Positions 17,389-64,000 of a stretch of DNA of 64,000 nucleotides are shown piece by piece (position 1 is the stretch's first letter; each line of letters opens with the position of its first letter). Origin of the DNA: an uncultured Pseudomonadales bacterium (GTDB lineage: Bacteria; Pseudomonadota; Gammaproteobacteria; Pseudomonadales; Azotimanducaceae); assembly GCA_958296195.1 (NCBI GenBank), contig OY282455.1, forward strand, positions 2,728,001 to 2,792,000. Direction: 5' to 3'. The position numbers were made by a program, and so were the translations under genes. A model generated the notes under the pieces. The model did no database searches. It saw only the letters and a list, made by a program, of their open reading frames with translations, and was not told the origin of the DNA.

Positions 17389-17550
17389 TCAGGGGATGCG
17401 GAACTTAGAGGGGCAGTCCTTGGTTGTTTGAAGATACTCGTCCGGGGTCTTCCAGTCGAGGGCTTGGTGAGGTCTCACGTGATTATGGAATTGCTGGTGT
17501 TCCGCCAAGGCGATGCTGGCCTCGGCGACAAGGCCGGTGACGCCGATCAT
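17389..17550 (-). pseudogene. transposase C-terminal remnant (IS3/IS481 integrase type)
   Basis: The minus-strand frame ends Phe-His-Asn-His-Val-Arg-Pro-His-Gln-Ala-Leu-Asp-Trp-Lys-Thr-Pro-Asp-Glu-Tyr, the conserved tail of rve-type integrase transposases (Tyr-Asn-x-x-Arg-Pro-His-x-Ala-Leu-x-x-x-Thr-Pro). Only about 50 codons remain; no catalytic DDE residues or inverted repeats are visible. Confidence 0.7.
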
Positions 17551-17606
17551 GCTACAACCTCCGCCGCAGGCTTTGATGCTCTCAATTTTGCGCCGAGGAG
17601 AAAGTC

Positions 17607-18570
17607 ATAGTTAAGCCGATACTGATTATCTTGTTGGCGGTTGCGGCCTTCGCTGCCCTCTCCGCCCCAACCACCTTTGCCGCCACGCCGTATTGAACTT
17701 GCGATCCTTCGCAGGGGCGCATCCGCCAAGTGCGATGCACCTTTTTCTATGACGAGGACAGCGTCCCTTCCGTGAACAGGGGGATCATCCACGGCTTCCT
17801 GCACCCACCTTACTACCCGCCCCCTGATTTGGGCGTCGCAATGGTCTCCAGCCAATGCAGTGAGGCCGGTGGCGACTGGTGACGGCCGGGCCCTGGTTTG
17901 GTGGATGTGAGCGCCGAGGGGCTGATCTTCAACTACACCACCGTCGCCGATACGCCTTCGCGTTTTCTCGTGGCTTTGACGGCGCTAGTGACCGGCGCAG
18001 GGCGCTCCCGACCTCGTAGTGCAGGGGACGCCGTGAGCGACAGAACGCTTGCCCCCGGCCAGTCCTTCAATTTTAGGGCGGCTGTCTTCAAGGATGATGG
18101 AGGTGCCGTCGGTGGGGACGCGGCTGCGACCACACTATGCTGCTACCTCTCCGAAGACCCTACTTTGAACCCTCTAAGCCCACCATCCTCTAAGCGCGCC
18201 GTCCAGCGGCGTTGATGAGGTGGTTGGCAGGGACGCGGTAAGGGCCATTAACTGGAATTCCGCCTTCACGGACGAGGACATGACCTCCCGAGAGGACATT
18301 CAATTGACCGCACCGGCCACGGTGGGCGAGGATTACTACTACTACGCCTGTGTCGCCCCCGTGCCCGGCGAAACAGGCGCTAGCCTTATGAACAACTGTT
18401 CGGCAACGACCGCGGAGGACGCAGTGGGGATGCTTGTGGGCGACGAACCCGATCTGGCCGCCGAAGGGTCGTCGGTCAGCGACGACATTCTGGGGCCTGG
18501 GCAGTCCTGCAACCGTTATTGTGCAAGGTGGCAGGCGCCGTCGCTGGACAGTGAAGGGCCTGTTTCATGA
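17607..18570 (+). pseudogene. decayed secreted CARDB-type repeat protein
   Basis: Broken reading frames run on the plus strand. After AGGAGA at 17597 comes a signal-peptide-like stretch without a normal start codon (the codons are ATA GTT), ending Phe-Ala-Ala-Thr-Pro-Tyr, then an in-frame TGA at 17694 and a further 61 codons to TGA 17880. Downstream, in shifted frames, occur Val-Ser-Asp-Arg-Thr-Leu-Ala-Pro-Gly-Gln-Ser-Phe, Leu-Thr-Ala-Pro-Ala-Thr-Val-Gly-Glu-Asp-Tyr-Tyr-Tyr-Tyr-Ala-Cys-Val, and again Val-Ser-Asp-Asp-Ile-Leu-Gly-Pro-Gly-Gln-Ser, which is the repeating pattern of CARDB-like adhesion domains. At least three frameshifts or stops interrupt it. It ends at the rluC start. Confidence 0.65.
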
Positions 18571-19538
18571 GCGGTTCAGTCCGCCGCGTTGAGGCGGAGA
18601 ATTCGGGCCAGCGCATCGACAATTTCCTGGTGCGCGTTCTCAAGCCCCTGCCCAAGGCCCGCATCTACCGCATGCTGCGCCGCGGCGAAGTGCGGGTGAA
18701 CGGCGGCCGCATCAAACCACACTACCGGGTGCAGGCCGGCGATGAGCTGCGGCTGCCGCCGGTTTGGCGGGTGCGGCCGCCGGCCGAGGCGGGCCGAGGG
18801 GGCGCGGCGTCCGCGCCGGCCGGCAAGGGCCTGATCGCCTTGCTGGGGCGGCGCACCCTGTTTGAGGACGAGGGCCTGCTGGTCATCGACAAGCCCTCCG
18901 GCGCCGCCGTGCATGGCGGCAGCGGCATTCGCTTTGGCGTCATTGAGGCCCTGCGCAGCGGGCGCGGAGACCGCTTCCTGGAGTTGGCCCACCGCTTGGA
19001 CCGAGACACCTCCGGCTGCCTGATGATCGCCAAGTCCCGCGCCGCCTTGGGCGAATTGCAGCAAATGCAGCGCTCGAAGCGCTTGGCGAAGTCTTATCAG
19101 TTGCTTGTGTCAGGACGCTGGCCGAAGAGCCGCAACCTAGTGGAGCTGCCCCTGCACCGCTATGTCACCGCGGCGGGGGAGCGGCGGGTGCGGGTGGCGG
19201 CGGACGGCAAGCCGGCCCGCACCGGCTTCAGCCTTTTGCACTCCTGCGCCGCTGGTTCGTGGCTAAGGGCTAGGCTGCACACCGGGCGCACCCATCAGAT
19301 TCGCGTCCACGCCGCCGCCACCGGCCATCCGTTGCTAGGTGAGGACAAATACGAGACGCCGGCGTCCTTGGCTTGTTCCACAGCGGCGCGGGTGCCTCGG
19401 CTGTGCCTGCACGCCGACAGCATTCGCCTGCCGTGGCGGGGTGCGGAGTTGCGCCTGGAAGCGCCCTTGCCGCCGTTGTTTGCGGAGGTTTGGCGGCGCT
19501 TGGAGGATGGTCTTCCAGAGCCGGCTCGCCCCGATTGA
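18567..19538 (+). CDS. rluC: 23S rRNA pseudouridine synthase RluC
   Basis: A 323-residue RluA-family enzyme that makes pseudouridines in 23S rRNA. It has an N-terminal S4 RNA-binding domain (Arg-Ile-Tyr-Arg-Met-Leu-Arg-Arg-Gly-Glu-Val-Arg-Val-Asn) and the catalytic motif His-Arg-Leu-Asp-Arg-Asp-Thr-Ser-Gly with Asp145 as nucleophile, then Leu-x-Thr-Gly-Arg-Thr-His-Gln-Ile-Arg-Val-His. The assignment to RluC rather than RluD rests on the S4 type and the position divergent from rne and beside yceF, exactly as in E. coli. The start overlaps the end of the upstream pseudogene frame by 4 bp. Confidence 0.93.
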   Translation: MSGSVRRVEAENSGQRIDNFLVRVLKPLPKARIYRMLRRGEVRVNGGRIKPHYRVQAGDELRLPPVWRVRPPAEAGRGGAASAPAGKGLIALLGRRTLFEDEGLLVIDKPSGAAVHGGSGIRFGVIEALRSGRGDRFLELAHRLDRDTSGCLMIAKSRAALGELQQMQRSKRLAKSYQLLVSGRWPKSRNLVELPLHRYVTAAGERRVRVAADGKPARTGFSLLHSCAAGSWLRARLHTGRTHQIRVHAAATGHPLLGEDKYETPASLACSTAARVPRLCLHADSIRLPWRGAELRLEAPLPPLFAEVWRRLEDGLPEPARPD

Positions 19539-40043: not shown

Positions 40044-42464
40044 ATGTTCAAACGCTCCGCCTCCAAGGGACCTTGCCTGTTCGCCTTGAAACCGGTCGCC
40101 CGTGCGGTGCGGCAGACGTCCTTGGCCTCCGCCGGCGCCGCGGTGCTCGCCTTCGGCGGTGCTGCGCCGGTGGTTTTGGCCCAAGGCAGCGGGCTGGCCA
40201 TTGAGGAGGTCATCGTCACCGCGCAGAAGCGCGACGAAAGCGTTCAGGATGTGCCCATCAGCATCGACGTGCTTGGCCAGGCCGATTTGGAGGAGCACGG
40301 CGTCACGGACTTGGAGGACTTCGTGCAGTTGCTGCCTTCCGCGAGCTACGCCAGCCTAGGCCCGGGCACTGGGGACATCTACATTCGCGGCATCTCCAGC
40401 GGCGGCGAGAACGCCTTGGGCTCCACGCCGAACGTCGCTGTTTACCTTGACGAGCAGCCGATCACCGCCGTCAACGCCTACCTGAATCCGCACATCTACG
40501 ACATCGCCCGCATTGAAGCCTTGGCCGGCCCGCAGGGCACCCTGTTCGGCGCCAACTCCCAATCCGGCAGCATCCGCATCATCACCAACAAGCCGAATCC
40601 AGCCGGCTTTGAGGCTCAATACGATGTGGAGTTCGGCGCCATCAGGAAGGGGGACGTCGGCTACCTGCTTGAGGGCATGGTGAACGTGCCGCTGAGCGAC
40701 CGGGCGGCGTTTCGGGTGGTGGCTTGGCGCAAGGAGGACGCCGGCTTCATCGACAACCTGCCCACCGCCTACACCTTCAGAAACGACAATGTGCGCGCCG
40801 GCCTGTCCGACCCGGCCTTGATAGCCGCCGCCGCCGACATCAGGGTGGACAACGAGGACGTGGTGGAGAAGAACTTCAACGAGGCCACCACCACGGGCGC
40901 CCGCGCCGCCCTCGGCATCGACCTGAACGACAACTGGACCGTTACCGCCGGCGTCATGCGCCAGGAGTTGGAGTCTCAAGGGGTCTGGGACCATGATCCC
41001 GAGGAAGTGGGCGACTTGGAGGTAGTGCGCCTGCTGCCGGACGAGAACGACGACGAATGGACGCAGATTTCCCTAGTGGTGGAGGGCAAGATCGCCGGCC
41101 TTTCCCTCACCTACGCCGGCGCCCGCCTGGACCGGGACACCAACAATAAGGCGGACTACTCGATTTACGCGGACTACTTCGTCTCCGGCGGCTTCGTGCA
41201 ACGCTTCTATTCCTGCTATGTCGCTTACTTCGGGGACTGCGTGGACCCCCGCACCCTGTTGACCCAGGACGAAACCTACGACCGGGACAACCACGAGCTG
41301 CGCATCGCCTCCGCCCAGGACAAGCGCTTCCGCTGGCTGCTCGGCGCCTTCTACGAGAACGACAGGCACGCCTTCGACTGGGAGTGGCATGTGCTTGGCC
41401 TGGATGGCTTAGCCACTGCGGGAACCCCAGCCGCGGTGGAGCCGCCGGACATCTACTGGACCACGGACCAAGTGCGCAAGAGCGAGGAGTTGGCCTTCTT
41501 CGGCGAAGTTGGCTTCGATCTGTCGGATCAGCTCACCGCCTCCTTTAGCGCCCGCTGGTTCGACTCCAAGATCAATCTGCGCGGTTTCTCCGGCACCATC
41601 TGGTTCCCGGGCCGGTTCGGCGCCCGCACGGAGGACTTCAACACCGATCTGGTCACCGAGGACCAGGACGCGGTCATCAAGGCCAGCCTTTCCTGGCATG
41701 TCACCGACGACGTCATGGTTTACGGAACCTATTCGGAAGGCTATCGCCCCGGCGGCCTCAACCGGGTGTTCAACACTCTGATCGGCGGCGTCTATAAGCC
41801 GGATTTCGTCGAGAACATCGAGGTGGGCGTCAAGGCCTCCGCCCTGGATGGGCGGCTGCGCTACAACTTCTCCGCCTTCACCATGGACTGGGACGACTTC
41901 CAACTAACCCGCTTCGACATTTCCGTGTCCCCGTTGACGCTGACCGACAACGTGGGCAACGCCCGCAGCCGCGGCTTGGAGGGGGACTTCGCCTACCTGC
42001 TCACGGACAGCTGGAGCCTGTCCGCGGCCTTTTCGCTGATCGAGGCTGAGATCGCCGAAGACTACTGGATCAACAAGGCCAACATCGGCGATGGCAATCC
42101 AGATGCGGAGAAGGGGCGCGAACTGCCTAGGGTGCCGGAGTTCAAGGCGAACCTGACCTCCCGCTACGGCTTCACTCTGGCCGGCATGGACGCCTACGTC
42201 CAAGGCTCCTACGTTCATACGGGGGCGTCCTGGAACACCCTGTTTGACGGCAGCAACAACATTCGCAATCGGCGCAAGCAGCACGCCTACGACATTCTCA
42301 ACCTAGCGGTGGGCGTGGAGCAGGGCGGCTGGGCAGCGGAGTTCTTCATTCGCAACCTCACCGACGAACGTGGCGAAGTGTTCAAGAACGGCGCCTCCTG
42401 GGACGCCCGCATCACCACCAACAGACCCCGCACCATTGGGCTGCGTTGGCGGCAGAAGTTTTAG
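40044..42464 (+). CDS. TonB-dependent receptor
   Basis: An 806-residue outer-membrane receptor. A signal peptide ends near residue 48 (Val-Val-Leu-Ala-Gln), then Ile-Glu-Glu-Val-Ile-Val-Thr-Ala-Gln-Lys-Arg forms the TonB box and plug start, with Val-Pro-Ile-Ser-Ile, Tyr-Ile-Arg-Gly-Ile and Gly-Pro-Gln-Gly-Thr-Leu-Phe-Gly-Ala as plug motifs. The barrel ends in Phe (Gln-Lys-Phe). This subfamily, named for siderophores but widespread in oligotrophs, imports unknown substrates. It opens the scavenging island; the other receptor at 51470 is of the same subfamily. Confidence 0.93.
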   Translation: MFKRSASKGPCLFALKPVARAVRQTSLASAGAAVLAFGGAAPVVLAQGSGLAIEEVIVTAQKRDESVQDVPISIDVLGQADLEEHGVTDLEDFVQLLPSASYASLGPGTGDIYIRGISSGGENALGSTPNVAVYLDEQPITAVNAYLNPHIYDIARIEALAGPQGTLFGANSQSGSIRIITNKPNPAGFEAQYDVEFGAIRKGDVGYLLEGMVNVPLSDRAAFRVVAWRKEDAGFIDNLPTAYTFRNDNVRAGLSDPALIAAAADIRVDNEDVVEKNFNEATTTGARAALGIDLNDNWTVTAGVMRQELESQGVWDHDPEEVGDLEVVRLLPDENDDEWTQISLVVEGKIAGLSLTYAGARLDRDTNNKADYSIYADYFVSGGFVQRFYSCYVAYFGDCVDPRTLLTQDETYDRDNHELRIASAQDKRFRWLLGAFYENDRHAFDWEWHVLGLDGLATAGTPAAVEPPDIYWTTDQVRKSEELAFFGEVGFDLSDQLTASFSARWFDSKINLRGFSGTIWFPGRFGARTEDFNTDLVTEDQDAVIKASLSWHVTDDVMVYGTYSEGYRPGGLNRVFNTLIGGVYKPDFVENIEVGVKASALDGRLRYNFSAFTMDWDDFQLTRFDISVSPLTLTDNVGNARSRGLEGDFAYLLTDSWSLSAAFSLIEAEIAEDYWINKANIGDGNPDAEKGRELPRVPEFKANLTSRYGFTLAGMDAYVQGSYVHTGASWNTLFDGSNNIRNRRKQHAYDILNLAVGVEQGGWAAEFFIRNLTDERGEVFKNGASWDARITTNRPRTIGLRWRQKF

Positions 42465-51379: not shown

Positions 51380-51407
51380 TTGACAGCGCCTTGAAAACCG
51401 TCAGAAT
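51380..51407 (+). promoter_or_regulatory. candidate promoter of the second TonB receptor
   Basis: A perfect TTGACA at 51380-51385, 16 bp, then CAGAAT at 51402-51407, 63 bp before the receptor start. The 315 bp between the SDR and receptor genes hold only this and the small peptide frame. Confidence 0.42.
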
Positions 51408-51469
51408 TGCCGGTCCAAGATGCGGGCGCATGGATGGGCGCTGCGGTCATTTTTTTTGGAGGGGCAATC

Positions 51470-53884
51470 ATGATGCGTTTTTTGCGAAATTCTGTCGCGC
51501 TTGCGGGATTGCTGGCGCTCGTCGGGGGCTTTGGCAGCGGCGGCTATTCGGCTGCGGCTTGGGCGCAGCAGCAGGATGCCTCCGGGTTGATCGAGGAGGT
51601 GGTGGTAACCTCCCGGCGGCGGCAGGAGTCACAACAGGACGTGCCGCTTTCGGTGACCGCCTTCGGCGCGGAGCAGATCGAGCAGCTCAAGCCGCAGACC
51701 TTGCGGGACTTCGATGGGCTGGCCCCCAATGTCTATCTGGGCATGAACACCGCCGGCCCTGGCGCCAGCGCCCTGTACATTCGCGGCATCGGCTACTCCG
51801 ACATCGAGAAGACGCAAAGCCCCCAAGTGGGGGTGATCGTCGATGGCATTCAGATGGGCTCCAGCACCGGGCAACTGATCGACGTGTTTGATGTGGAGAG
51901 CATTGAAGTCAACCGCGGCCCGCAGGGTGTGCTGTTCGGCAAGAACACCATCGGCGGCAACATCGTCGTCAACCGGGTGCGGCCCCAGTTCAACGAGTTT
52001 GGGGTCAAGGTGGCCGGGGAGATCGGCAACTACGACTCCAGAATCCTCAAGGGCCGGGTCAACATTCCGCTGGTCGATGACACTCTGGCCCTGAAGGTCG
52101 GCGCCATCATGCGGGAGCGGGACGGCTTCTACGACAACGTCACCCTAGGGGACTCCGCCGGCGATGTCGATTTCTCCTCCCAAACCTTGGCCCTGCGCTG
52201 GGCGCCTTCGGACAAGTTCGACGCCATCCTCACCTACGACCGCATCAAGGACCGGGGGCAGATCCCGCCCCAGGACCCGCGCTTCAACGGCGACGACCCC
52301 TTCGAGAACTTGGCGGACAAGAAGGAGCCGATGTGGTACGACGTGGATCAGGTGGGCTTGCGGGCGGAATGGGAACTGCCCAACGGCTACGTTCTCAACG
52401 CCATCACCGCCTGGCACAGCGGCGATGATCTGGTCAACCAGGACTTTGACGGCGGCGCCATCGACGGGGGCGCGACTCCGTTTGCGCAGTTGCACACCTT
52501 GCGAGATCAGGAGTTTGACGTGTTCACTCAGGAGATTCGTCTCTCCGGGGACTTTACCGACAACGTGGATTTCCTGGTCGGCTTCTACTACTTCAGTTCG
52601 AACCTGGAGTTTCAGCAGAACACCAACAATGTGCTGCAACTGCCGCCTGTCGCTCTCAGTCCGGCCTTGGTTGGATTGCCTTGCGCAGTGATCGGATCCC
52701 CGGCCATCACGGGACTGGGGCTGCGCGCCAACCCGGGCATCGGCGACGCGCTCTGCCAATTCCCCAACGCCCGCAGCATTCAGCGCGCTGGTGAGGACGT
52801 CAAGTCCATCGCCCTGTTCGGGGCCATCAACTGGCGGCCGACTGACAATCTGGAGCTGAGCTTCGGCGCCCGCTACATCAGTGAGGACAAAGACGCCTAC
52901 AACTCCTACTTCGACTATACGGACGGCACCTTCGACACCACGCCGGTGACTCAGGAGTTCAATTTCGCCGGCCGCCCGGAGCGGGCCGGCGTCGCCTACG
53001 ACGTGTCGGACAGCTGGGACGACGTGATTTTGCTGGCCTCCGCCACTTGGGCCATCACCGAGCAAAACCGTGCCTACGTCAGCTATTCGGAGGGTTTCCG
53101 CAGCGGCGGCTTCAGCATCCGCTCCGCCCGGGACCCTTCCGAAGCAGCCTTTCAGCCGGAGGACGCCTTCCAACTTGAAGCCGGCCTGAAGAACGAGTTC
53201 TTTGACCGCCGCCTGCGTCTCAACGCCGCCTACTTCTACTTGGAGCGGGACGGCAGCCAATTCAGCTCCATCATTCCCCTGCCGCCCGGCTCCATTCCCG
53301 GCACCACCACCATCATCAACAACGGCGGCACCTCCGAGTACTCCGGGGTTGAACTGGAGTCCCAATGGCTGATCAACGACAACTTCACCCTAGTGGTGAA
53401 CGGCGGCATCCTAGACGTCAAAAACCAAGCCTTCACCATCGACTGCTCCATTCTTGACGGCTGCGCCACCGGCGTTCCCGGGGTGACGGACCCGGCCGGC
53501 ACGTTGCGCACCTTGGGCGGCAATGACGACTCCCGACAGCCGGATTGGAACGTCTCCGTCACCTTGGCGTTTGACCGGCAAGTGGGTCCCGGTCGCTTCT
53601 CCGCCAACGTTGGCTGGAAGAAGGTGGGCAACTTCCTGCTGGTGAACACCGGCGGTGGCGCCGATCAACGGCTGTTTGAGGGCGGCTACTTCGGCCTTGA
53701 CGCCCGGGTGGCCTATGAGTGGGCCTTGGCCAACGGCGGCACCGTCTCCATCGCCGCCTTCGGCAAGAACCTCACCGATGAGCAATGGCGGGAGCAGGCC
53801 CTGTTCCTAGGCGGCTTTAGGACTGGCTTCCAAGGCTGGGGCGCTCCGCAAACCTACGCGGTGGAGTTCTCCTACACGATGTAG
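51470..53884 (+). CDS. TonB-dependent receptor
   Basis: An 804-residue outer-membrane receptor: signal peptide ending near residue 33 (Ala-Ala-Trp-Ala-Gln), TonB box and plug start Ile-Glu-Glu-Val-Val-Val-Thr-Ser-Arg-Arg, Tyr-Ile-Arg-Gly-Ile, Gly-Pro-Gln-Gly-Val-Leu-Phe-Gly-Lys-Asn, and C-terminal barrel strand Ala-Val-Glu-Phe-Ser-Tyr-Thr-Met. GGAGGGG upstream of ATG 51470 fixes the start, with a second ATG right after. Together with the MFS gene downstream it can move a small organic substrate over both membranes. Confidence 0.93.
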   Translation: MMRFLRNSVALAGLLALVGGFGSGGYSAAAWAQQQDASGLIEEVVVTSRRRQESQQDVPLSVTAFGAEQIEQLKPQTLRDFDGLAPNVYLGMNTAGPGASALYIRGIGYSDIEKTQSPQVGVIVDGIQMGSSTGQLIDVFDVESIEVNRGPQGVLFGKNTIGGNIVVNRVRPQFNEFGVKVAGEIGNYDSRILKGRVNIPLVDDTLALKVGAIMRERDGFYDNVTLGDSAGDVDFSSQTLALRWAPSDKFDAILTYDRIKDRGQIPPQDPRFNGDDPFENLADKKEPMWYDVDQVGLRAEWELPNGYVLNAITAWHSGDDLVNQDFDGGAIDGGATPFAQLHTLRDQEFDVFTQEIRLSGDFTDNVDFLVGFYYFSSNLEFQQNTNNVLQLPPVALSPALVGLPCAVIGSPAITGLGLRANPGIGDALCQFPNARSIQRAGEDVKSIALFGAINWRPTDNLELSFGARYISEDKDAYNSYFDYTDGTFDTTPVTQEFNFAGRPERAGVAYDVSDSWDDVILLASATWAITEQNRAYVSYSEGFRSGGFSIRSARDPSEAAFQPEDAFQLEAGLKNEFFDRRLRLNAAYFYLERDGSQFSSIIPLPPGSIPGTTTIINNGGTSEYSGVELESQWLINDNFTLVVNGGILDVKNQAFTIDCSILDGCATGVPGVTDPAGTLRTLGGNDDSRQPDWNVSVTLAFDRQVGPGRFSANVGWKKVGNFLLVNTGGGADQRLFEGGYFGLDARVAYEWALANGGTVSIAAFGKNLTDEQWREQALFLGGFRTGFQGWGAPQTYAVEFSYTM

Positions 53885-55490: not shown

Positions 55491-56267
55491 CTATGAAGGC
55501 GAGATAAAGGACTTCAACTGATTGGCGAGGCTGGTGCAGGCTGAGGAGCGCACACGGGCGATGATGGGAATGGGCACGATGACCGCCGGCATGTAGCTCA
55601 TGCCGGTGGCTTCGGAACTGATCTTGCCGGCGTTCGTGCCCGTATCGATGTCCCATACCGAAGCCTCGTAGGACGAGTCGTTCTCCCAGGACAGGAAGCC
55701 GAAGCAGCCGCCGCCGCCGGGGGTTACGGCGCAGGTCAGGGAGCCGCTGGAATCGGTGCGCTCGGTGGAGCCCTCTATCCACACCAGATACTTCAGGCGC
55801 ATCCGCTCTAGGCGTGCGGCCAAGGGCGGTTGCTTGATGATCTCCGGCAGGTCGGCGCTGTTGACGGGTGCGATGCGCGGTTCGAACCAGGGGAAGACGG
55901 CGTCGATGAACTGCTGTTCGTCAATGACGTTGATCCCTTCGGCCCCGCGGCTCATGCTGTCCCCCACGCAGGTGATGAAGTCCAGCTCCGTTTCGTCCGT
56001 GGTGGGTTGGCTGCGGCGACCGAGCACGACGATGGCGTCGCCGCCGGCCATCGCCGTGTCCGTCTCCCGAATCTCCTGCACCGTGGCGGTGACGCAGCCG
56101 CCTAGCAGAGTGCAAACGGCCAGAAGGAGCGCCAAGGCGGACAACGCGGGGTTGCTGGGCTGGTGGGTGGGGCTTGCATCGCCGCGCCGCAACCTGAATT
56201 CGACTTGGGGCGGGGCCGCCCTGCTGGCTGGGTGGCCCTTGCGCATTGTTGGTTGCTTTGGCTTCAT
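55491..56267 (-). CDS. uncharacterised lipoprotein, last gene of the VWA/ExbB-like operon
   Basis: A 258-residue protein with a delayed signal sequence and lipobox Leu-Leu-Gly-Gly-Cys (Cys58). The mature part has Gly-Asp-Ala-Ile-Val-Val-Leu-Gly, a predicted beta-rich core, Leu-Lys-Tyr-Leu-Val-Trp-Ile-Glu-Gly, two Cys in a Gly-rich loop (Val-Thr-Pro-Gly-Gly-Gly-Gly-Cys), and Tyr-Glu-Ala-Ser-Val-Trp-Asp. I do not recognise the family. The residue after Cys is Val, which favours sorting to the outer membrane. Its ATG overlaps the stop of the gene before it (ATGA), so it is translated with the operon. Confidence 0.75.
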   Translation of the reverse strand: MKPKQPTMRKGHPASRAAPPQVEFRLRRGDASPTHQPSNPALSALALLLAVCTLLGGCVTATVQEIRETDTAMAGGDAIVVLGRRSQPTTDETELDFITCVGDSMSRGAEGINVIDEQQFIDAVFPWFEPRIAPVNSADLPEIIKQPPLAARLERMRLKYLVWIEGSTERTDSSGSLTCAVTPGGGGCFGFLSWENDSSYEASVWDIDTGTNAGKISSEATGMSYMPAVIVPIPIIARVRSSACTSLANQLKSFISPS

Positions 56268-56947
56268 GCCGGCGCTCCTAGTTCCTTCGCCAACCAAGCC
56301 TGCACCGCCGGCACGGTGGCGAACTGCTGGGTGAAGAAGGCCATGGCGTCTCGGCAGGCGGCCATAGCCGCATCCTGCAGGGCGCTGCCGGTGCCGGCGT
56401 GGTTTTGTTTGTGCGCCTTGCCGTAGGCGGTCAACTCCCAATCGCCAAGTTCAGCGCCTTGGTTGTCATGCAGCTTGAAGCGGTAGCGAAGCCAGACCTC
56501 GTAGTAGTCCGAGCGGCTTTGCTCGGGGGTGGCGAACTGCACCTCCTCAATGGACGGCGCCAGCACGCCGGCGACGTCTCGATGCCGTGCTGCCACTTGC
56601 TTGACAAGCCGGTGGCCCACGAACATGCCGTCCAGCAGGTTGGCGAACATGGACGGCTGTGCGGAACCGAGTTCAATCTCCCAGTCCCCCCGTTTCTCCA
56701 AGGACTCCCGATGGGTGTAGGCGAGCAGCGCTTCATCAAGGTAGAGGCCGATCGGCAAGGGAACCTTTTCCACCAAGGGCACGGGAAACTGCGTAGGCAC
56801 CGCCACCTTGGCTCCGGCGCAACCCACCAACAGGGTCACAATCGATAGCAGCAGGGATGCCTGGGCAACTTTGACGCCATTCCGCCTTGCGGCGCAGTTG
56901 GCGAACCCTCGGAAAACGGTCGGCGATTGGTTGATGGCAAAAGGCAT
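56264..56947 (-). CDS. uncharacterised lipoprotein of the VWA/ExbB-like operon
   Basis: A 227-residue protein with lipobox Leu-Leu-Val-Gly-Cys (Cys43), followed by Ala-Gly, so outer-membrane sorting is expected. It contains Pro-Leu-Pro-Ile-Gly-Leu-Tyr-Leu-Asp-Glu-Ala-Leu and a pattern of alternating strands (Val-Trp-Leu-Arg-Tyr-Arg-Phe-Lys-Leu), the kind seen in small envelope-assembly lipoproteins, then a helix with many Ala near the C-terminus. Family not recognised. ATG 56947 was chosen; a TTG 15 bp upstream is possible. It lies 43 bp after the first VWA gene. Confidence 0.75.
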   Translation of the reverse strand: MPFAINQSPTVFRGFANCAARRNGVKVAQASLLLSIVTLLVGCAGAKVAVPTQFPVPLVEKVPLPIGLYLDEALLAYTHRESLEKRGDWEIELGSAQPSMFANLLDGMFVGHRLVKQVAARHRDVAGVLAPSIEEVQFATPEQSRSDYYEVWLRYRFKLHDNQGAELGDWELTAYGKAHKQNHAGTGSALQDAAMAACRDAMAFFTQQFATVPAVQAWLAKELGAPA

Positions 56948-56989
56948 TTCTTTGCGGGACAAACAGGCTGCTGCGACGTGCCGCCTAGA

Positions 56990-57982
56990 TTACTGGAATT
57001 CAGACAGACCTACAAAGGTGCCCTCGTTGCGGTGCGCCAACTCCCGCATCAGGGCGGCGAAGCGGTAGATGCGGGCGTTGGGCCGCTGCAAATGCACCGG
57101 GAAGCCCACGGCGTTGATGCGCACCCGCCGCCGCCCGCTCTCGTCGGCGACGTTGATGCGGTCCACGGCATCGACCACCTCCTCTATGGAGCCACCGCTG
57201 TAGTCATCACCGAACACATAGATGCCGATGCGCTTGTCCGGCGCGTAGAAGGTGTCGATGGCGGCCTGAATGCCCTCCACCGGGCTGGAGTTGCTGAATG
57301 GGCTCCAACTGCGCAGGGTGTTGATGATGGATTGCCGACGGGCCGGCGTGTCGGGAATCCACTGGCCGCGGTAGCCTGAGAACATGTACTCGCCCATGTC
57401 GTTCATCACTTGGATGCCCTTGACGGTGGGATAGACGTCCAGAGTCTCCTGCACCTTGCGCAGCACTTGCGGCCAAGCGCCGTTGAACATGCTGCCGGAG
57501 GTGTCGATGACGAAGATGATGTACTCGCTATCAACGGCGATGCCGCCGACGAGGTCGCTTTGGCGGCGGAAGTCCAAGCCCAGCAGACGCTCCATTTCGT
57601 CGGTGAGGGTTTGGCGGGCGGCGGCGAGCTTCAGGGTCTGTCGGCGCATTTCGTCATTCATTTCAGTGGTGGCGTTGAATTGGCCAAGGATGCGGGTCAA
57701 CTCCTTGCGCATGGCGGCCAGCGCGAGCAGGTTTTTGTCCAACTGGGCGGCGGCTTGCTCCACCTGCCGACGCAGCTCCCGGATCTGGCCTTGAATGTCG
57801 TGCAGGGCTTGCTCCCGGCTGGCGACCTGCCCCTCCAAGCTGACCGAGGATTTCTCCAGCAGCACCGGCGCCACTGTTTTGGTGATGAGCAGCAACAGGA
57901 TGATGGCGCCGAAGCCGCAGCAGATCACGTCCAGGAAGGAGACGCTGAACTCCTCCATCGGCCGACGCCCGCGAATGCTCAT
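56990..57982 (-). CDS. VWA protein with ExbD-like N-terminal helix (VWA-1)
   Basis: A 330-residue protein. N-terminal basic Arg-Gly-Arg-Arg-Pro, then Phe-Ser-Val-Ser-Phe-Leu-Asp-Val-Ile-Cys-Cys-Gly-Phe-Gly-Ala and one TM helix (about 13-36), a coiled coil (50-130) and a von Willebrand factor A domain with MIDAS Asp160-Thr-Ser-Gly-Ser164. The Phe-Leu-Asp-Val before the helix parallels Phe-Ile-Asp-Val in ExbD, where the Asp is needed for proton flow. By ExbD topology the VWA domain faces the periplasm. It is a paralogue of the gene upstream, 13 bp away. Confidence 0.85.
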   Translation of the reverse strand: MSIRGRRPMEEFSVSFLDVICCGFGAIILLLLITKTVAPVLLEKSSVSLEGQVASREQALHDIQGQIRELRRQVEQAAAQLDKNLLALAAMRKELTRILGQFNATTEMNDEMRRQTLKLAAARQTLTDEMERLLGLDFRRQSDLVGGIAVDSEYIIFVIDTSGSMFNGAWPQVLRKVQETLDVYPTVKGIQVMNDMGEYMFSGYRGQWIPDTPARRQSIINTLRSWSPFSNSSPVEGIQAAIDTFYAPDKRIGIYVFGDDYSGGSIEEVVDAVDRINVADESGRRRVRINAVGFPVHLQRPNARIYRFAALMRELAHRNEGTFVGLSEFQ

Positions 57983-57995
57983 GGCAAGCGCTCCA

Positions 57996-59090
57996 CTAGG
58001 GCCAGTCCTTGGAGGGCGCCATGTAGGCGCCGCCGCTGGTGCGGGCTAGGTTCCAGAAGGCGGCGGAGGCCAAGGGGTCCCCCTCCATCGGCATCAGGAT
58101 GACGTTGATCGGCACCTGCGGAGGCAGTTGGCGCAGCGCCTCGCGGAACAGGTTGAGCCGATCGGCGCCGGAAATGGTCGCCCGCCGCGGTTTTCTGGCG
58201 CCTTGGGTGGGCAGGGAGTCGGTCACCAAATAGACGTTGTCCGGCAAGGGATTCAAGGTGCTCAGCTTAGCGGCTAGGCGCTCCAGGCTGGTGCCGCCGG
58301 TCGGGATCATGGCGCTAAGGCGGTCGATGGCCGCCGATAGCGCCCGTCCATCGCCCAAGGGCGCCCATTGGTCTTCGCTGTCCGGCACCAAGGACCGCGC
58401 CTCTTCGTTGAAGGCGAACAATTGGAAGTCCGCATCCAGGGGCAGTTGCGCGGCCAGCCACTCCGCCGTGCGCACCGCCCGCCGCCACTTGGGGGCGTTG
58501 CGCCGGCGCTCTTCCGGCATGTTGCGGCGGCGCAGCACGTTGACGATGGTTTCGTCGAGCATGCTGGCGGACACGTCAATCGCGATGAGAATGTTGCGCC
58601 CGCCCACCTTGAGACCCGTGAGGTACTGCCGGTCCCCCTCACCGACGAAGGCCCGCGCCTTGCCGCCTTCGTTGGCCTTCTCCATTTGGCGCAGCCGTTG
58701 CACCTCCTCCTCGCGGGACTCGACGTCGCTGCTGAGCTTCTCCAAGGAGGTGCGCTCCGCGGAGGAATCCGCACTCAGTTCGTCCAGCGCCTCGCGGGAC
58801 TGGCTCAGATCGGCCTCCACGCTCACTAGCTGGCGTTGCGATGCGCTCAGCCGTTGCGCCAGAGTCTCCAGGCGCTCCTTCCATTCAAACAAGTCCTTCT
58901 CGCCCGTCTGCACCTGATAGTCGAGCAGGCGGACTTCGGCTAGCTGATCCCGATTGACGACCTTGGCGTTCTCCTCGGTTGCATGGTTGATGATGAGGAA
59001 GATCAGCACGACCGCCCCGAAGCCGCACGACATGACGTCCAGAAACGCCATGGAGAAGACGCTGGGCCGCCGCCCGCGACGGCGCGTCAA
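57996..59090 (-). CDS. VWA protein with ExbD-like N-terminal helix (VWA-2)
   Basis: A 364-residue paralogue of VWA-1: Arg-Arg-Arg-Gly-Arg-Arg-Pro, then Phe-Ser-Met-Ala-Phe-Leu-Asp-Val-Met-Ser-Cys-Gly-Phe-Gly-Ala and a TM helix, a coiled coil with heptads (45-140), and a VWA domain with MIDAS Asp172-Val-Ser-Ala-Ser176, Thr in Thr-Gly-Gly-Thr-Ser and Asp in Val-Thr-Asp-Ser. The start is TTG 59090, which overlaps the stop of the actin-like gene as TTGA; the N-terminus then matches VWA-1, supporting it. The two probably form a hetero-oligomer around the ExbB-like channel. Confidence 0.85.
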   Translation of the reverse strand: MTRRRGRRPSVFSMAFLDVMSCGFGAVVLIFLIINHATEENAKVVNRDQLAEVRLLDYQVQTGEKDLFEWKERLETLAQRLSASQRQLVSVEADLSQSREALDELSADSSAERTSLEKLSSDVESREEEVQRLRQMEKANEGGKARAFVGEGDRQYLTGLKVGGRNILIAIDVSASMLDETIVNVLRRRNMPEERRRNAPKWRRAVRTAEWLAAQLPLDADFQLFAFNEEARSLVPDSEDQWAPLGDGRALSAAIDRLSAMIPTGGTSLERLAAKLSTLNPLPDNVYLVTDSLPTQGARKPRRATISGADRLNLFREALRQLPPQVPINVILMPMEGDPLASAAFWNLARTSGGAYMAPSKDWP

Positions 59091-60220
59091 GGGCCGTCCT
59101 CCACGACGATGAGTTGGAAGCGCCGCCCGTCCTTTTCGTGTACTTCACCCACGCGCCCCCCTTCCGGCAAGCCGAAGGGGTTGCCGGGCAGGGGCCAGGC
59201 CCGCTGGCCGTGCAGCGCATGGGTGGCCGCCTGCGGGCTTGCTTGAGGGGATGGCGCGGCGGCTTTTTGGGGCAATGCCGCAACCAGCTTCAACTCGCTC
59301 AGGGCGTCTGCGTGCTGGGCGGCGGCGCGGCTTAAGGCGTCCTCCGGCAGAGCCTCCGGGCGCAGGCCGAGGCTGCTCAACGCCGCCATCAGGCCTGGCA
59401 GAGCGGCGCTGCGCGGCGCCACCAGCAACTGGGCGTCGTGGGGAACTTTCTCGGCCGCCGGGGCTAGGCGTTGGGCCAGCTTGTCCTGCAGGGCGGCGCG
59501 GCTGAGCTGAGTGCGCCGCACGGTGCCCCGATATTGGATTTCCAAGGCCAGATCGGCTTGGCCGTCGCTTCGGCACCAGGTGTGCAGTTGGTCATAGAGT
59601 TGCTGCTCGGTGTCGGCGGCGTGCAGGGGATCGAAGCGCAGGTCCTGCACGAAGCGGTCCGCCGCCAAGTTGGCCCAACCGTCCAGGCAGGAGTTGAGGC
59701 CGGCGCTGGTCAGGGGTTCAACCGCGCCGCGGCTCAAGTTTTCGCCGTCGCGAAGCTCGGTGAGGCAGCAGTGCGTGGCATGCAGGTCCAGAAGCCAGGT
59801 GGGTGGTCTAAGCGCCGCGGCGCTGGCCAGCAACAGGGCTGCATCCACGAAGGCGCGAATCTCCAGGCCGGCTTCGTTGGCGATGCCGAGCAGAACGCCG
59901 AGTTGCTCCCTAGCCAGAAATCCCGAAACGGCGACGATGGCCGGCTGCTCCGCCAGATCCCTTAGTTCCAGCAGGTGCCGATAGACCAGGTCCGCATGGT
60001 TGGCCACCTGCCGCCCGGGATTCGGCAGCGGGTCCGCATTCAGCCGCGCCAGATATTGTTGATTCGCCTTCTGTGGATGCCGGCGGGCGCTCTTAAGGGC
60101 TGCGTCGCCGAACGCCAAGGCGTCGCCGTCGAGATAGGCGATGGCCGGTTGTTGATAAAGGATGCGACCGTCTTGGTGAAGGCTGAGCGCCGCGTCGTTG
60201 ATCTCAAGCACCAAGGGCAT
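59087..60220 (-). CDS. divergent actin/Hsp70-fold protein
   Basis: A 377-residue protein whose layout fits the ASKHA fold: a first strand pair (Val-Leu-Glu-Ile-Asn-Asp), Ala-Phe-Gly-Asp-Ala-Ala-Leu-Lys-Ser-Ala-Arg-Arg as in Hsp70-like proteins, Val-Ala-Val-Ser-Gly-Phe, and a second phosphate region Leu-Leu-Asp-Leu-His-Ala-Thr near 143. The Gly residues of the usual Asp-x-Gly phosphate loops are replaced, so ATP hydrolysis may be weak or lost. The C-terminal 60 residues are Ala/Pro-rich and then strand-like. No TM helix; cytoplasmic. It is coupled to VWA-2 through TTGA. GspL-like divergent members are an alternative reading. Confidence 0.6.
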   Translation of the reverse strand: MPLVLEINDAALSLHQDGRILYQQPAIAYLDGDALAFGDAALKSARRHPQKANQQYLARLNADPLPNPGRQVANHADLVYRHLLELRDLAEQPAIVAVSGFLAREQLGVLLGIANEAGLEIRAFVDAALLLASAAALRPPTWLLDLHATHCCLTELRDGENLSRGAVEPLTSAGLNSCLDGWANLAADRFVQDLRFDPLHAADTEQQLYDQLHTWCRSDGQADLALEIQYRGTVRRTQLSRAALQDKLAQRLAPAAEKVPHDAQLLVAPRSAALPGLMAALSSLGLRPEALPEDALSRAAAQHADALSELKLVAALPQKAAAPSPQASPQAATHALHGQRAWPLPGNPFGLPEGGRVGEVHEKDGRRFQLIVVEDGP

Positions 60221-60316
60221 GGCTAGGTCCGGCGTTTGGGGCAGCGGTGAATGTGGGCGACGTTTAGCTGCCGGCGGCAGGCCAAGCAGCGGCGCCGTTG
60301 GGTTTGGGCAAGTACG

Positions 60317-61120
60317 TCATTGGCCGCGCACCTGCAAGTGGCTCATTAGGCGCTGGTCGCAATAGGTTTGCACGTCCAGCGCCAAGCGCTCCTGAATGAG
60401 CTGCAGTTGATGCATCAGGAACATGATGACGATGCTGATGACCAAGGCGATGAAGGTGGAGTTGAAGGCCACGCCAAGGTTGGCCGTGACGCCGGCGATG
60501 TCTCCCTCCACGGCCTTGTAGGCTTGGCCCAGGGCTTGGCTAATGCCCCGCACTGTGCCGATGAAACCTATGCTGGGAATCGCCCAGGCGATGTAGCGGA
60601 CCATGGCCAGTTCGCTGTCAAGCCGGTCCGATTCGGTGTCGCAGACCGCCTTGACGGCCACCGCAACGTCCTGCACGTTGCGGGTGGAGGCGAAGCGCTG
60701 CAAGGCGGACAGCAGCGCTCTCGGCAGCAGCCGTTCGCGCACGGTCGCCGGCAGCGCCTGAATGGGGCGGGCGTATTCCCGGGCGTCCTCCGGCAGTATG
60801 CTCAGGCCGTCCGCCACCTTGATGATGTCTTCGGCGAAGAGGCGGCGTTCGCGCAGGGCGCTGCGGCCCTTGTAGCCCATGATCGCCACGGCCCAGAGCA
60901 TCAGCACGAAGCAGGATTCCTGCTCGAAGTCCTTGAGCATGACGTAGATGGACTGCTGTTCGTCAACGCGCTCGCCGGCCGCCGCCTGTTCCGCCCGCAG
61001 TTCAATAACCGCTTGGGCGTTGGGGCGCACGACGGTGATGTAGAGCAAATGCACGACGATGAGCGCCAGCACCAGGGCGGCTATTTGGTAGATCAGCTCC
61101 GTGGGCAGTTGGCGCTTCAT
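60317..61120 (-). CDS. MotA/TolQ/ExbB-family proton channel protein
   Basis: A 267-residue membrane protein with TM helices at about 8-30, 66-82, 172-196 and 212-238. The family motif reads Ile-Pro-Ser-Ile-Gly-Phe-Ile-Gly-Thr-Val-Arg-Gly (181-192), with the final helix Asn-Leu-Gly-Val-Ala-Phe-Asn-Ser-Thr-Phe-Ile-Ala-Leu, matching the TolQ/ExbB pore helices that surround the stator Asp. The large cytoplasmic loop (85-170) is in place. In known systems the partner is ExbD, TolR or MotB; no such gene is here, but the two VWA proteins carry an ExbD-like helix. ATG 61120 overlaps the stop before it (ATGA). Confidence 0.9.
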   Translation of the reverse strand: MKRQLPTELIYQIAALVLALIVVHLLYITVVRPNAQAVIELRAEQAAAGERVDEQQSIYVMLKDFEQESCFVLMLWAVAIMGYKGRSALRERRLFAEDIIKVADGLSILPEDAREYARPIQALPATVRERLLPRALLSALQRFASTRNVQDVAVAVKAVCDTESDRLDSELAMVRYIAWAIPSIGFIGTVRGISQALGQAYKAVEGDIAGVTANLGVAFNSTFIALVISIVIMFLMHQLQLIQERLALDVQTYCDQRLMSHLQVRGQ

Positions 61121-61410
61121 ATGTCCACCGGGAAGGGTACGGCGAAGTCTTCGGAGATCTCTTCGGAGGGCAGGAAAACCTCTTGCTGCGGCCCTTCGTC
61201 CCCGGAAGCCTCGCGGTCTTCAGCTTGGTTGGCGCGGTGGTTTTGCTCCTGCGCTGTGGGGTTCTCCGCCGGCGAATTCGCCATCATCGGCTGAACTTCG
61301 GCGTTGAGGGCGACAGCAAAAAAGGCGAGGCTGCAATGCAGCAAAGCGGCAGTGGCCCAGCGCCGGCCTAAGCCCGAACGGGGGCGGGTGCGCAGCCTTG
61401 GGCGAGCCAT
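61117..61410 (-). CDS. small one-TM protein of the VWA/ExbB-like operon
   Basis: A 97-residue protein: basic N-terminus, one TM helix (about 20-37, Ala-Ala-Leu-Leu-His-Cys-Ser-Leu-Ala-Phe-Phe-Ala-Val-Ala-Leu), then an acidic, Gln/Glu-rich tail ending in Val-Pro-Phe-Pro-Val-Asp-Ile. Family unknown. Its stop overlaps the ExbB-like start (ATGA). The frame is open upstream and an ATG at 61557 would add 49 residues of basic, low-complexity sequence; ATG 61410 looks better because the TM helix is then near the N-terminus. Confidence 0.55.
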   Translation of the reverse strand: MARPRLRTRPRSGLGRRWATAALLHCSLAFFAVALNAEVQPMMANSPAENPTAQEQNHRANQAEDREASGDEGPQQEVFLPSEEISEDFAVPFPVDI

Positions 61411-61711
61411 TCCCGAGTCACGCGGCCGGCGCAGCAAAGTATTCAACCAGTCCGACCCGCTGTGGCCAAAATCGTTCCGGAATGCCGCGGTCCGCCCGTA
61501 GGCGCCGCCTTTGGCGGTTTTGGCGCCGAGTGGTTTGTCGTTGGGTCCTCTGTGCATTACACCGTTGCCCGAGTGCTTGGATGCGGATGGCGTTTGCCAA
61601 CAGCATAACGCCTTGTTTATTTGCAGCCCATGTTTCCTGTTTGCGCAAGCTGGGGCGTTTCGACCGCCGCGCAGCCTAATTGCCCTTTGCGCAACAACTG
61701 GGCCGCGAGTT
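61411..61711. other. gap inside the operon, no separate gene
   Basis: These 301 bp between the SUMF1 gene and the small TM gene are the only sizeable gap in the operon. They hold a short hairpin, CCGCC-TTT-GGCGG at 61505-61517, and an open frame continuous with the small TM gene. An internal promoter is possible but I cannot point to good boxes. Confidence 0.4.
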
Positions 61712-63757
61712 TCACGGTGCCGCCTCCGCAAAGCGGGCGATTCTAAAGCCCAGATCCGGCCGGCCGTCGATGCCGTAGTCGCGGAATGACAGTCTAAGGT
61801 CGGTAATGGTGCCATGCATCCAGCTGGAGCCGCGCATGACATGATACTCCCCTGCCGCTGGTCCCATGGGGCCAGCGCCTTCCGGCACCGGGTGCTGATA
61901 GTAGTCGTTGACCCACTCCGCCGCGTTGCCGCCCAAGTCGAAGAGCCCCTTGGCGTTGGCGGCGAACGTGCCCACCGGCGCCGCCACTGCGTAATTGTCG
62001 TTGTAGCCGAAGATGATCCGCCCGACCAAGTGCCCGGCGGAGCGGTCCGCGTAGTTGCCGTGGCGGTCGGGTGGCGGCAGGGCGTCGCCCCAAGGAAAGC
62101 GCAGCAGCGTCGTCACGCCGTCTTGGGTGCGGGCCGCCCAAGCCCACTCCGCCTCCGTCGGCAGCCGATAGCCGGTGGCCTGGGGGTTGAAGCCGGTCGC
62201 CTTGCCGAACTCCTCAGTGTAGAACAGGGGCATGTTTTCTTGGCGGGACAGCCAGTTGCAGTAGAGCGCGGCGTCGTGCCAGCTTAGGGCTACGGCGGGC
62301 TGGTCGTCCTTGTTCAGGGGCTGGTCCTCGTAGGATCCGGAGTCGTGGCCGCTGGCGAAGGCCCTGAATTCGGCGTTGGTGACCTCCTTGACGGCGAGGT
62401 AGAACAGCCGTTGCAGCGCCACTTCGCGCAGGGTTTCGTTGGCCCGTCGGCCGGCTTCCCTTCTTGAGGCGCCTAGGGTGATGGGGCTGGGCTGCATCAA
62501 CCTCAACACCTGGCCTTGGGTGGTGGCGATTTCCGGGCGCAGCGCCGCCAGCCGGGCCTCCTCCAGAGTCAGCAGGCTGACCTGCACCTCCAAGGTAAGC
62601 CCTGGCCGCGGGATGACTTTGGTGCGGTGGTCAGCGTAGCCCGGTGCGGTGATTTTCAAGTCGTGGGGGCGGGCCGGCAGTTTCAAGATTTGGTTGGCCG
62701 GCCCGGCCGGACGTCCGTCCACATGCAGTTCGGCCGTGGCTGGGGAGGCTTGCACCGAAACCGACCCGACCAGTTGCTTGAGTTCCAGGGACAGCGTTCG
62801 CGTTTCGCCGGCTCGAAGGTTTAGGCTCGCCTCCCGTGCCGTAAAGCCGGCTTTGAAGGCCCGTACGCGATAGGCGCGGCCGGAGCGTAGTTCCGCCCGC
62901 AGCGGTGACTCGCCCTGATATTGGCCGTTGATGGTCACGCCGGCGCCGGCCGGTCGAGTGCTTACGCTCAACCGGGCGTCGGCCTGCCGGAGCTTGATGA
63001 GGGCGGGTGTACGCCGCTCTTGGGCGGCAACCAAAATGCGCTGGCGACGGGTCTGATGGCCGTCGAGCAGCAGGGCCACCTCGTGCTCCCCAGCTAGGAT
63101 CTCCACCGTCGCCGGGGTGCGTCGGCCAGTGTCCTCCCCATCGACCAGAATGCGGGCGCCGGGCGGCTCGGTGACGTAATGTACTGCGCCCCAATTGGGC
63201 GCCAATTCGACCCTGACCCGCTCCGGCTGCTGTCGTCCGGCAACTGTCACGGACAGCTCTTTTGCTTGATGGCGCGGATGGGTGAAGCGCAAGCGCCGCT
63301 TCCCAGCCGGCACGGGAATGTCCGCCAAGGGGGTTGTGCCGATGGCCTTGCCGGCGATGCTCACCGAGGCGCCGGTGGGCGTGGAGTGGAAGCTCAGCAG
63401 GCCAGGCAGTGGAGTGAACTCGAAGGCGAAGGCTTGGTTCCGTTCGGGGCCGACCTGCAGCATTTCGTCCAGCGGATGGTGGCCGGCGAGTTCGGCCCGC
63501 ACCCGATAGGCTTGGCGCAGCAGCAGGTGAACGCCGCCGAAGGCGAGGGCGGGGCCACCGGACAGCTCCACCTGTTCGGCCGGCGGCGAAAACGCCAACT
63601 CCACCGAGCGGGCGGTGAACAAGAAGATCAGCAAGGCGGCGGCGGCCAGCGCGACCGCCCCTAGGGCAGCCGGCAACGGCGCGATCCTGAAGCGCCTTGG
63701 CGCCGCTGCGTCCGGCGGCCGGTAGCGGACGGGTTCGATCACCGGACCGTCGGTCAT
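61712..63757 (-). CDS. PEGA-repeat and SUMF1-domain membrane protein
   Basis: A 681-residue protein with one TM helix (about 28-50), four PEGA-type beta domains (about 120-187, 191-257, 261-328 and 330-397; each with Ser-x-Pro-x-Gly-Ala-x-Val-x-Ile/Val-x-Gly and a later Gly-x-His/Tyr-x-Val/Leu) and a C-terminal SUMF1/formylglycine-enzyme-like domain (417-681) with Val-Thr-Asn-Ala-Glu-Phe, Tyr-Arg-Leu-Pro-Thr-Glu-Ala-Glu-Trp-Ala-Trp, Gly-Asn-Ala-Ala-Glu-Trp-Val and Arg-Gly-Ser-Ser-Trp. The Cys pair of active formylglycine enzymes is not there, so the domain is likely binding or structural. PEGA domains bind cell-wall or glycan surfaces. ATGA overlap with the gene before. Confidence 0.88.
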   Translation of the reverse strand: MTDGPVIEPVRYRPPDAAAPRRFRIAPLPAALGAVALAAAALLIFLFTARSVELAFSPPAEQVELSGGPALAFGGVHLLLRQAYRVRAELAGHHPLDEMLQVGPERNQAFAFEFTPLPGLLSFHSTPTGASVSIAGKAIGTTPLADIPVPAGKRRLRFTHPRHQAKELSVTVAGRQQPERVRVELAPNWGAVHYVTEPPGARILVDGEDTGRRTPATVEILAGEHEVALLLDGHQTRRQRILVAAQERRTPALIKLRQADARLSVSTRPAGAGVTINGQYQGESPLRAELRSGRAYRVRAFKAGFTAREASLNLRAGETRTLSLELKQLVGSVSVQASPATAELHVDGRPAGPANQILKLPARPHDLKITAPGYADHRTKVIPRPGLTLEVQVSLLTLEEARLAALRPEIATTQGQVLRLMQPSPITLGASRREAGRRANETLREVALQRLFYLAVKEVTNAEFRAFASGHDSGSYEDQPLNKDDQPAVALSWHDAALYCNWLSRQENMPLFYTEEFGKATGFNPQATGYRLPTEAEWAWAARTQDGVTTLLRFPWGDALPPPDRHGNYADRSAGHLVGRIIFGYNDNYAVAAPVGTFAANAKGLFDLGGNAAEWVNDYYQHPVPEGAGPMGPAAGEYHVMRGSSWMHGTITDLRLSFRDYGIDGRPDLGFRIARFAEAAP

Positions 63758-64000
63758 TGTTGCAGAACTTCCCGGCAACGAATGTCTATGGGTGCCATGC
63801 CTTCGACCACGGTGATCTGGGTGCGGACGTCCCGGCAGCCGTCCCGGCTGCCGATGAGCGTATAGGCGCCGGGGCGCAGGTGCAGGCGTTTTTCGGAAAA
63901 ACGCCCTAAGGGGCCGATGTTGGAGAGCAGCACCTCGGTGGCGTTGTCCGAGCGCAGCACCACCGGCACCGGATTGCCGTAGCGCTGCAGCAGGGCGTCC
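63754..64000 (-). CDS. first visible gene of the VWA/ExbB-like operon (5' partial)
   Basis: About 81 C-terminal residues remain of a protein that continues past the window edge. They form a small beta domain with Val-Leu-Leu-Ser-Asn-Ile-Gly-Pro-Leu-Gly, Leu-Arg-Pro-Gly-Ala-Tyr-Thr-Leu-Ile-Gly-Ser-Arg-Asp-Gly-Cys-Arg-Asp-Val, close to the PEGA pattern found in the next gene. The stop overlaps the SUMF1 gene start as ATGA. What the N-terminal part is cannot be told. Confidence 0.7.
   Translation of the reverse strand, partial: DALLQRYGNPVPVVLRSDNATEVLLSNIGPLGRFSEKRLHLRPGAYTLIGSRDGCRDVRTQITVVEGMAPIDIRCREVLQQ

Follow-up and report, generated by a model that had tools for sequence, protein, structure and literature searches.

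A twelve-gene block extending beyond the window

The window, by which we mean the whole 64,000-nucleotide stretch of DNA analysed (G000:C1:2728001-2792000), lies within a single-contig genome of 4.3 Mb. It contains part of a block of twelve genes, A to L, all on the minus strand, that extends about 5 kb beyond the window. An earlier reading made from the letters alone (the sequence-only reading) had described the genes between 55491 and 64000, and these were found where it had placed them. The gene that it saw cut by the window's edge is D, which encodes a TPR protein and is preceded by two lipoprotein genes, C and B, and then by A, which encodes a TPR protein with a TonB C-terminal domain. 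The twelve genes are listed here, with positions in the window or, where so marked, in the stretch L002.

A: L002:15707 to about 17100, minus strand, outside the window; TPR and TonB C-terminal domain
B: L002:14546 to about 15541, minus strand, outside the window; Gly/Ser/Pro-rich predicted lipoprotein
C: L002:13341-14543, minus strand, outside the window; predicted lipoprotein of 400 residues
D: 63754..64000, minus strand (3' part; the gene runs to window-equivalent position 65316; L002:11755-13317); predicted TM-anchored TPR protein
E: 61712..63757, minus strand; predicted inner-membrane-anchored protein with four PEGA stretches and a SUMF1-like domain that lacks the catalytic cysteines
F: 61117..61410, minus strand; small, probably secreted periplasmic peptide, start uncertain
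G: 60317..61120, minus strand; channel subunit of the MotA/TolQ/ExbB family
H: 59087..60220, minus strand; Hsp70-NBD-fold protein, no hydrophobic anchor seen
I (VWA1): 57996..59090, minus strand; TTG start, N-terminal FLDV helix, coiled coil, VWA domain
J (VWA2): 56990..57982, minus strand; N-terminal FLDV helix, coiled coil, VWA domain with MIDAS D-S-S
K: 56264..56962, minus strand; predicted lipoprotein, listed start TTG, later start possible
L: 55491..56267, minus strand; predicted lipoprotein, no Pfam match

Four of the eight junctions within the window are 4-base overlaps, with ATGA at D/E, F/G and K/L and TTGA at H/I. Five such overlaps had been claimed from the sequence; the fifth, at G/H, does not stand, since the ATGA present there lies outside the frame of H.

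In the source genome, a ClpX-like gene recognised by eye (L002:about 17299-18579, plus strand) lies divergently beside the operon start. Among 144 stretches, the genome's own included and many of them ending near the block, a clpX match was found in the source genome only. An MFS gene downstream of the block is shared with one genus mate only (two records), again with many stretches ending near the block, so that the flanks carry little weight as evidence. Two long plus-strand ORFs near the operon, at 40044-42464 and 51407-53884 of the window, resemble TonB-dependent receptors by eye.

Invariant residues in a TolQ-like channel and two VWA proteins

The assignment of G as an ExbB/TolQ-like channel, proposed from the sequence alone, was confirmed by its match to MotA_ExbB (PF01618; 4.9e-14, 52.6 bits against a cut-off of 22.9); a profile search of the PDB with G returned no match at E <= 0.01. 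Two threonines of G, Thr189 and Thr222, which by motif we take to be the counterparts of the pore threonines of ExbB/TolQ, are each present in 126 of 126 unique rows. In both VWA families the N-terminal helix resembles FLD[VI]..CGFGA, and the Asp of this helix is invariant as well (134/134 unique rows for VWA1 and 128/128 for VWA2). The unique rows comprised 134 of 144 VWA1 ORFs (one low-scoring ORF was left out and the others were duplicates), 128 of 138 VWA2 ORFs and 126 of 135 channel ORFs. No exclusion was made for want of the helix, and the single low-scoring VWA1 ORF that was left out also has the motif.

The VWA Pfam score is below the cut-off in the window's own I and J, but VWA_2 matched 29 of 34 members of the VWA1 family at E <= 0.1 (best 1.8e-8), and the residues of the MIDAS vary hardly at all. 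The two VWA proteins named in the sequence-only reading hold up. Specifically, the MIDAS Asp of VWA1 was found in 131 of 134 rows, with two gaps, and the D, S and S of the VWA2 MIDAS each in 127 of 128, with one gap. A profile search of the PDB with VWA1 returned mainly coiled-coil matches among the best 60 of 103.

We also looked for a conventional ExbD/TolR partner of the channel, which had been thought absent. No ExbD (PF02472) was found in the block; the three ExbD genes of the source genome lie at 2.985, 3.096 and 3.825 Mb, the block being at 2.78-2.80 Mb, and none of the three is near the second operon described below either. Among the 24 genomes searched, 18 carry the block (own included), and in 0 of these 18 was an ExbD found inside the block stretch. 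The source genome has six MotA_ExbB matches, two of which adjoin VWA pairs. Neither I nor J matched PF02472 at E <= 1, and hhalign comparison of the VWA N-termini with 24 motif-picked ExbD sequences gave probabilities of 0.8-2.5%, little more than the 0.0-1.9% of six control N-termini. What had been called ExbD-like helices on the VWA proteins is an invariant Asp in the ExbD-like position of an N-terminal helix, and the likeness to ExbD seen here is one of motif and position. Taken together, the sequences make axle or stator subunits the best reading of the two VWA proteins, and we regard the inference of a motor as well supported at this level.

Gene order is conserved and the block occurs in two forms

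Gene presence was scored by running profiles of the twelve proteins on the gathered loci. VWA1 was found in 144 loci, from which 9 duplicates were removed; 39 of the 135 unique loci lay too near a contig or stretch end, which left 96. Seven genes form a nearly constant core, with B in 95 of these loci, C in 93, D in 95, E in 95, G in 95, I in 96 (as the bait) and J in 96, and the remaining genes are found in 74 (A), 84 (F), 85 (H), 75 (K) and 72 (L); as the loci were gathered via H or I, the presence of each of these two in its own searches is by construction. Whether the genes are conserved as a block, a question raised by the sequence-only reading, is answered by the presence of the core genes in 93-96 of 96 loci and by their order. 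Because the exact order A to L is kept in 59 of the 96 informative unique loci, even though the identity of H drops to about 25% within the aligned set, we consider the conservation of order to go beyond chance. In six loci (L051, L052, L056, L057, L060 and L062) reversed K and L lie between A and B, and in four of them (L052, L056, L057 and L062) A matches two ORFs.

A minimal form, consisting of B, C, D, E, G, I and J, was found in 9 of the 96 loci. The Hsp70-like protein H and the TPR/TonB_C protein A are missing from this seven-gene form, which alone occurs in a second class. The source genome itself carries this minimal set (B C D E G I J) once more, in a strongly diverged copy, at G000:C1 about 3.2418-3.2501 Mb (L178:9752-18119), in which both VWA helices have the Asp, in the motifs LLDV and LLDA. 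In a channel tree of 38 hand-picked loci (alignment of 126 rows), seven rows of the minimal type cluster at 90/88; 48 of 500 shuffles of the minimal label scored as low, which makes the grouping alone not strong evidence. The second copy forms a very long branch of odd composition, and its placement is unsure. In family f114, G follows J in L185 and L189, the L187 stretch yielded no G, and C went undetected in L187 and L189.

Among 58 genomes, counting the source genome, H was detected in 37: in 9 of 9 of the genus, 25 of 28 other family members and 3 of 21 other members of the order. A VWA1 profile at E <= 1e-15 matched 31 of 369 genomes drawn from the class and 15 of 398 drawn from the phylum, each figure counting the source genome; 12 of the latter 15 come from a single family that lies outside the class. 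Scanning GTDB genomes turned up at least 567 relatives; the best 80 named loci were taken forward, a set that favours near kin and includes Parahaliea, Chromatocurvus, Pseudohaliea, Pseudohalioglobus and Aestuariicella. For H, 35 of 36 relatives were taken in, G033, at a contig end, being left out; for VWA1, loci were taken in from 19 of 30 other genomes of the class search and from 8 of 14 of the phylum search, plus one already included. L067 was excluded from alignment A1 and L051 from A5.

This distribution bears on whether the block could be an anti-phage defence of the Zorya kind. A MotA/ExbB-type channel is present there too, and G weakly matches ZorA2 (0.0052). However, of the 37 genomes of the family, the source genome among them, 34 have H, Pfam recognised no nuclease or helicase in the block, and the PADLOC matches, obtained with ten of the twelve proteins (B and C left out), are weak and mostly to coiled coils, with no other Zor match. 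We therefore consider a defence role very improbable.

An Hsp70-fold protein without canonical nucleotide motifs

The predicted fold of H is that of the Hsp70/actin ATPase superfamily, specifically the Hsp70 NBD. The sequence-only reading had described an actin-like partner; the fold part of that description stands, and a role as an active ATPase finds no support. The motifs DxGT[TSC], DxGGG[TS] and GG[ST]xRxP are the canonical Hsp70 nucleotide motifs, and each was found in 0 of 35 members. Single glycines near the motif places survive in some members, so that H may still bind nucleotide. At least one relative has an FHA-like C-terminal region, and a profile search of the PDB with H returned only weak FHA-like and other matches (best 0.027).

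An Hsp70-fold partner would also suit an assembly or chaperone system of the Bat/MoxR kind, in which the VWA pair would provide metal-dependent binding heads and the channel would be regulatory rather than mechanical. Bat operons contain membrane VWA proteins plus TPR proteins, an arrangement that the two membrane VWA proteins and the TPR proteins of the block resemble, and the almost invariant MIDAS residues fit such heads. On the other hand, no MoxR ATPase was recognised by Pfam among the twelve block genes, H lacks the canonical nucleotide motifs and is missing from the minimal form, and the channel gene is kept in 95 of 96 loci. We judge an assembly system of this kind to be rather improbable, and retain the motor reading.

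Predicted envelope proteins of the block

E contains four PEGA stretches (Pfam PEGA, 4.7e-41) and an FGE-sulfatase/SUMF1 domain (9.9e-36), as the sequence-only reading had recognised; the glycan-binding role that it proposed for the PEGA protein found no support. The catalytic cysteine pair of the formylglycine-generating enzyme, SUMF1, presumably sits near the C-terminus; in the SUMF1 catalytic region, no Cys was found in 33 of 33 aligned members of E. Anchors and lipobox-like sites were scored with a simple pattern and a hydropathy threshold. By this measure 106 of 108 rows of E show a hydrophobic stretch at the N-terminus and 1 of 108 shows a lipobox-like site, and D has a hydrophobic stretch in 97 of 97 rows. 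Lipobox-like sites were found in most rows of B and C, in 84 of 101 rows of K and in 66 of 97 rows of L. B has a long Gly/Ser/Pro linker followed by a conserved ending like DDDIIARQLREAA..E.DPELREKLWEEYRRYK; the minimal form in another class (L253) has a related ending.

The predicted model of C (moderate, pLDDT 78.1) has a fold common to the outer-membrane lipoproteins or domains FlgT, PelC, CsgG, PqiC and TolB-N; a profile search of the PDB with C gave no match at E <= 1. Because many lipoproteins have this fold, it does not point to Tol specifically. A Tol-specific identity of C was considered and set aside: Foldseek placed TolB first (1e-3), but VIA ranks FlgT, PelC and CsgG above TolB, and Pfam TolB_N matched 1 of 29 members (0.0017), which indicates a shared fold only and not kinship with Tol.

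A matches the TonB C-terminal domain PF03544 (30.4 bits against a cut-off of 24.6), as do 15 of 24 members at E <= 0.001, and the family profile of A matches TonB structures (TonB2, 2.4e-13). F, which the sequence-only reading had taken for a small TM protein, resembles by eye a secreted peptide and probably is one; its apparent parts are a signal sequence, an acidic linker and, at the C-terminus, an acidic motif like F.P[ST]E.ISED..V.FPVDI, which is conserved in an alignment of 111 rows. As a candidate transducer of the TolA/TonB type (membrane His, SHLS) F was rejected: the window's own F has a His, but no column of the hydrophobic stretch is conserved.

Several of these proteins might instead belong to a gliding or secretion engine like GldKLM/type IX or Myxococcus AglRQS-Glt, in which one channel and two B-type subunits would drive an outer-membrane ring or adhesin carrier. 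CsgG and FlgT form rings, the entries for PelC are titled dodecamer, and C shares the fold of all three. In NCBIfam, E is matched best by GldK (3.5e-21; 76 bits, where the cut-off is 350). AglRQ/S likewise combines a single channel with two different Asp-helix partners (PMC9389320); GltG and GltJ are termed TonB-like there, and A has a TonB C-terminal domain. Against this, the GldK match of E reflects the shared SUMF1 domain, and neither Pfam (twelve genes) nor NCBIfam (ten of the twelve) picked out an outer-membrane barrel, an adhesin or a type IX gene in the block. We regard such an engine as the main rival to the Tol-like motor set out below, albeit an unlikely one.

Comparison with known systems

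The motor core is of a kind already described in 2025, and the block is a fuller variant of it. The sequence-only reading had known of no system with VWA domains as stator heads; that claim is superseded by a TPH-vWA/TolQ-like motor in print (PMC12204202; Mol Biol Evol 2025, msaf138), for which the reference is Idiomarina loihiensis. In that paper, TM-tethered vWA proteins are reported to co-occur tightly with tolQ homologues, without tolR/exbD and mostly as heterologous pairs, and AF3 puts the conserved Asp helix within the Thr ring; the first vWA family is presented there without a reported phenotype, and for the second none is given. Our block shares with this motor, by its published description, the VWA pair beside a TolQ-like gene (G in 95/96 and J in 96/96 loci), the lack of ExbD in the cluster, the conserved helix Asp and the conserved channel Thr. 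The difference lies in the partners: section 8 of the paper names no PEGA, SUMF1, Hsp70-like, TonB_C or lipoprotein partners, and the words SUMF, PEGA and formylglycine are absent from its main text. In the open-access PMC literature we recognised no account of the non-motor genes of the block.

Other systems share subsets of these features. Tol-Pal (TolQRA-TolB-Pal-CpoB) has a TolQ-family channel, TPR proteins, a TolB-N-like fold as in C and a TonB/TolA-type C-terminus as in A; in contrast, the block has the VWA pair in TolR's place, and no TolB propeller or Pal/OmpA-like domain was found by Pfam at E <= 1 in the twelve genes. ExbBD-TonB shares the channel family and the TonB C-terminal domain, whereas the block lacks ExbD and carries the TonB domain on the TPR protein A, which is missing from the minimal form. 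GldLM-GldK of type IX secretion and gliding combines a 5:2 motor with a SUMF1-domain protein, and E matches GldK at 3.5e-21; however, that match falls on a generic SUMF1 domain and stays far short of the GldK cut-off, and E has a hydrophobic anchor, with a lipobox-like site in 1/108 rows only. AglRQS-Glt, as described in PMC9389320, likewise has one channel, two different Asp-helix partners and TonB-like proteins in the wider system, but AglQ/S bear TolR-like peptidoglycan-binding domains and not VWA domains.

Proposed mechanism

Our reading as a motor is supported because the block is conserved, ExbD is absent and the Asp and Thr residues are invariant; because A carries a TonB C-terminal domain and C an outer-membrane lipoprotein fold; and because D and E are anchored, B, C, K and L carry lipobox-like sites in most rows, and an AlphaFold 3 prediction made independently for this type of motor (PMC12204202) agrees. 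We think that the operon probably encodes a machine driven by the proton-motive force that spans the envelope and has a VWA axle, with a Tol-like task the most likely one.

We propose that G, from its family and its invariant Thr pair, forms a TolQ/ExbB-type ring and that I and J replace ExbD/TolR, with their N-terminal Asp helices inside the G ring, probably as a heterodimer; the whole would then be a proton motor of the 5:2 type with a VWA heterodimer as its axle. Proton flow would turn or lever two coiled-coil stalks and, with them, the periplasmic VWA heads that bear the MIDAS. These heads may engage partners in the periplasm, namely D (TPR) and E (PEGA/SUMF1), both predicted to be anchored in the inner membrane, and force would be passed on to the outer-membrane lipoproteins B and C and, in the extended versions, also to K, L, the peptide F and A with its TPR and TonB C-terminal domain. 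H is predicted to be a cytoplasmic scaffold on the inner face and probably not an ATPase. Under this model, the machine proper would consist of B to E, G, I and J, to which the extended form adds A, F, H, K and L. The task may be the moving or tethering of outer-membrane lipoproteins or of a ring, and through this the upkeep or remodelling of the envelope; Tol-like work on the outer membrane is, in our estimate, the most likely role.

A bolder proposal, which we put forward tentatively, is that the block constitutes a third self-contained proton-driven system for force across the envelope, beside Ton and Tol-Pal. Such a system would have its own VWA-heterodimer axle, with the MIDAS gripping acidic ligands (for example the F tail, SED..V.FPVDI-like), its own PEGA/TPR collar at the inner membrane and its own outer-membrane lipoproteins, with the cytoplasmic Hsp70-fold protein as an optional regulator, and would exist as a minimal form of seven genes and an extended form of twelve.

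Few motors draw on the proton gradient to act at the outer membrane, and those that do are central to the biology of the envelope. What is new here is a widely conserved, full parts list for one such candidate, in two forms of 7 and 12 genes. The block thus provides a testable list of parts, two natural versions and several cultured carriers with which its job may be found.
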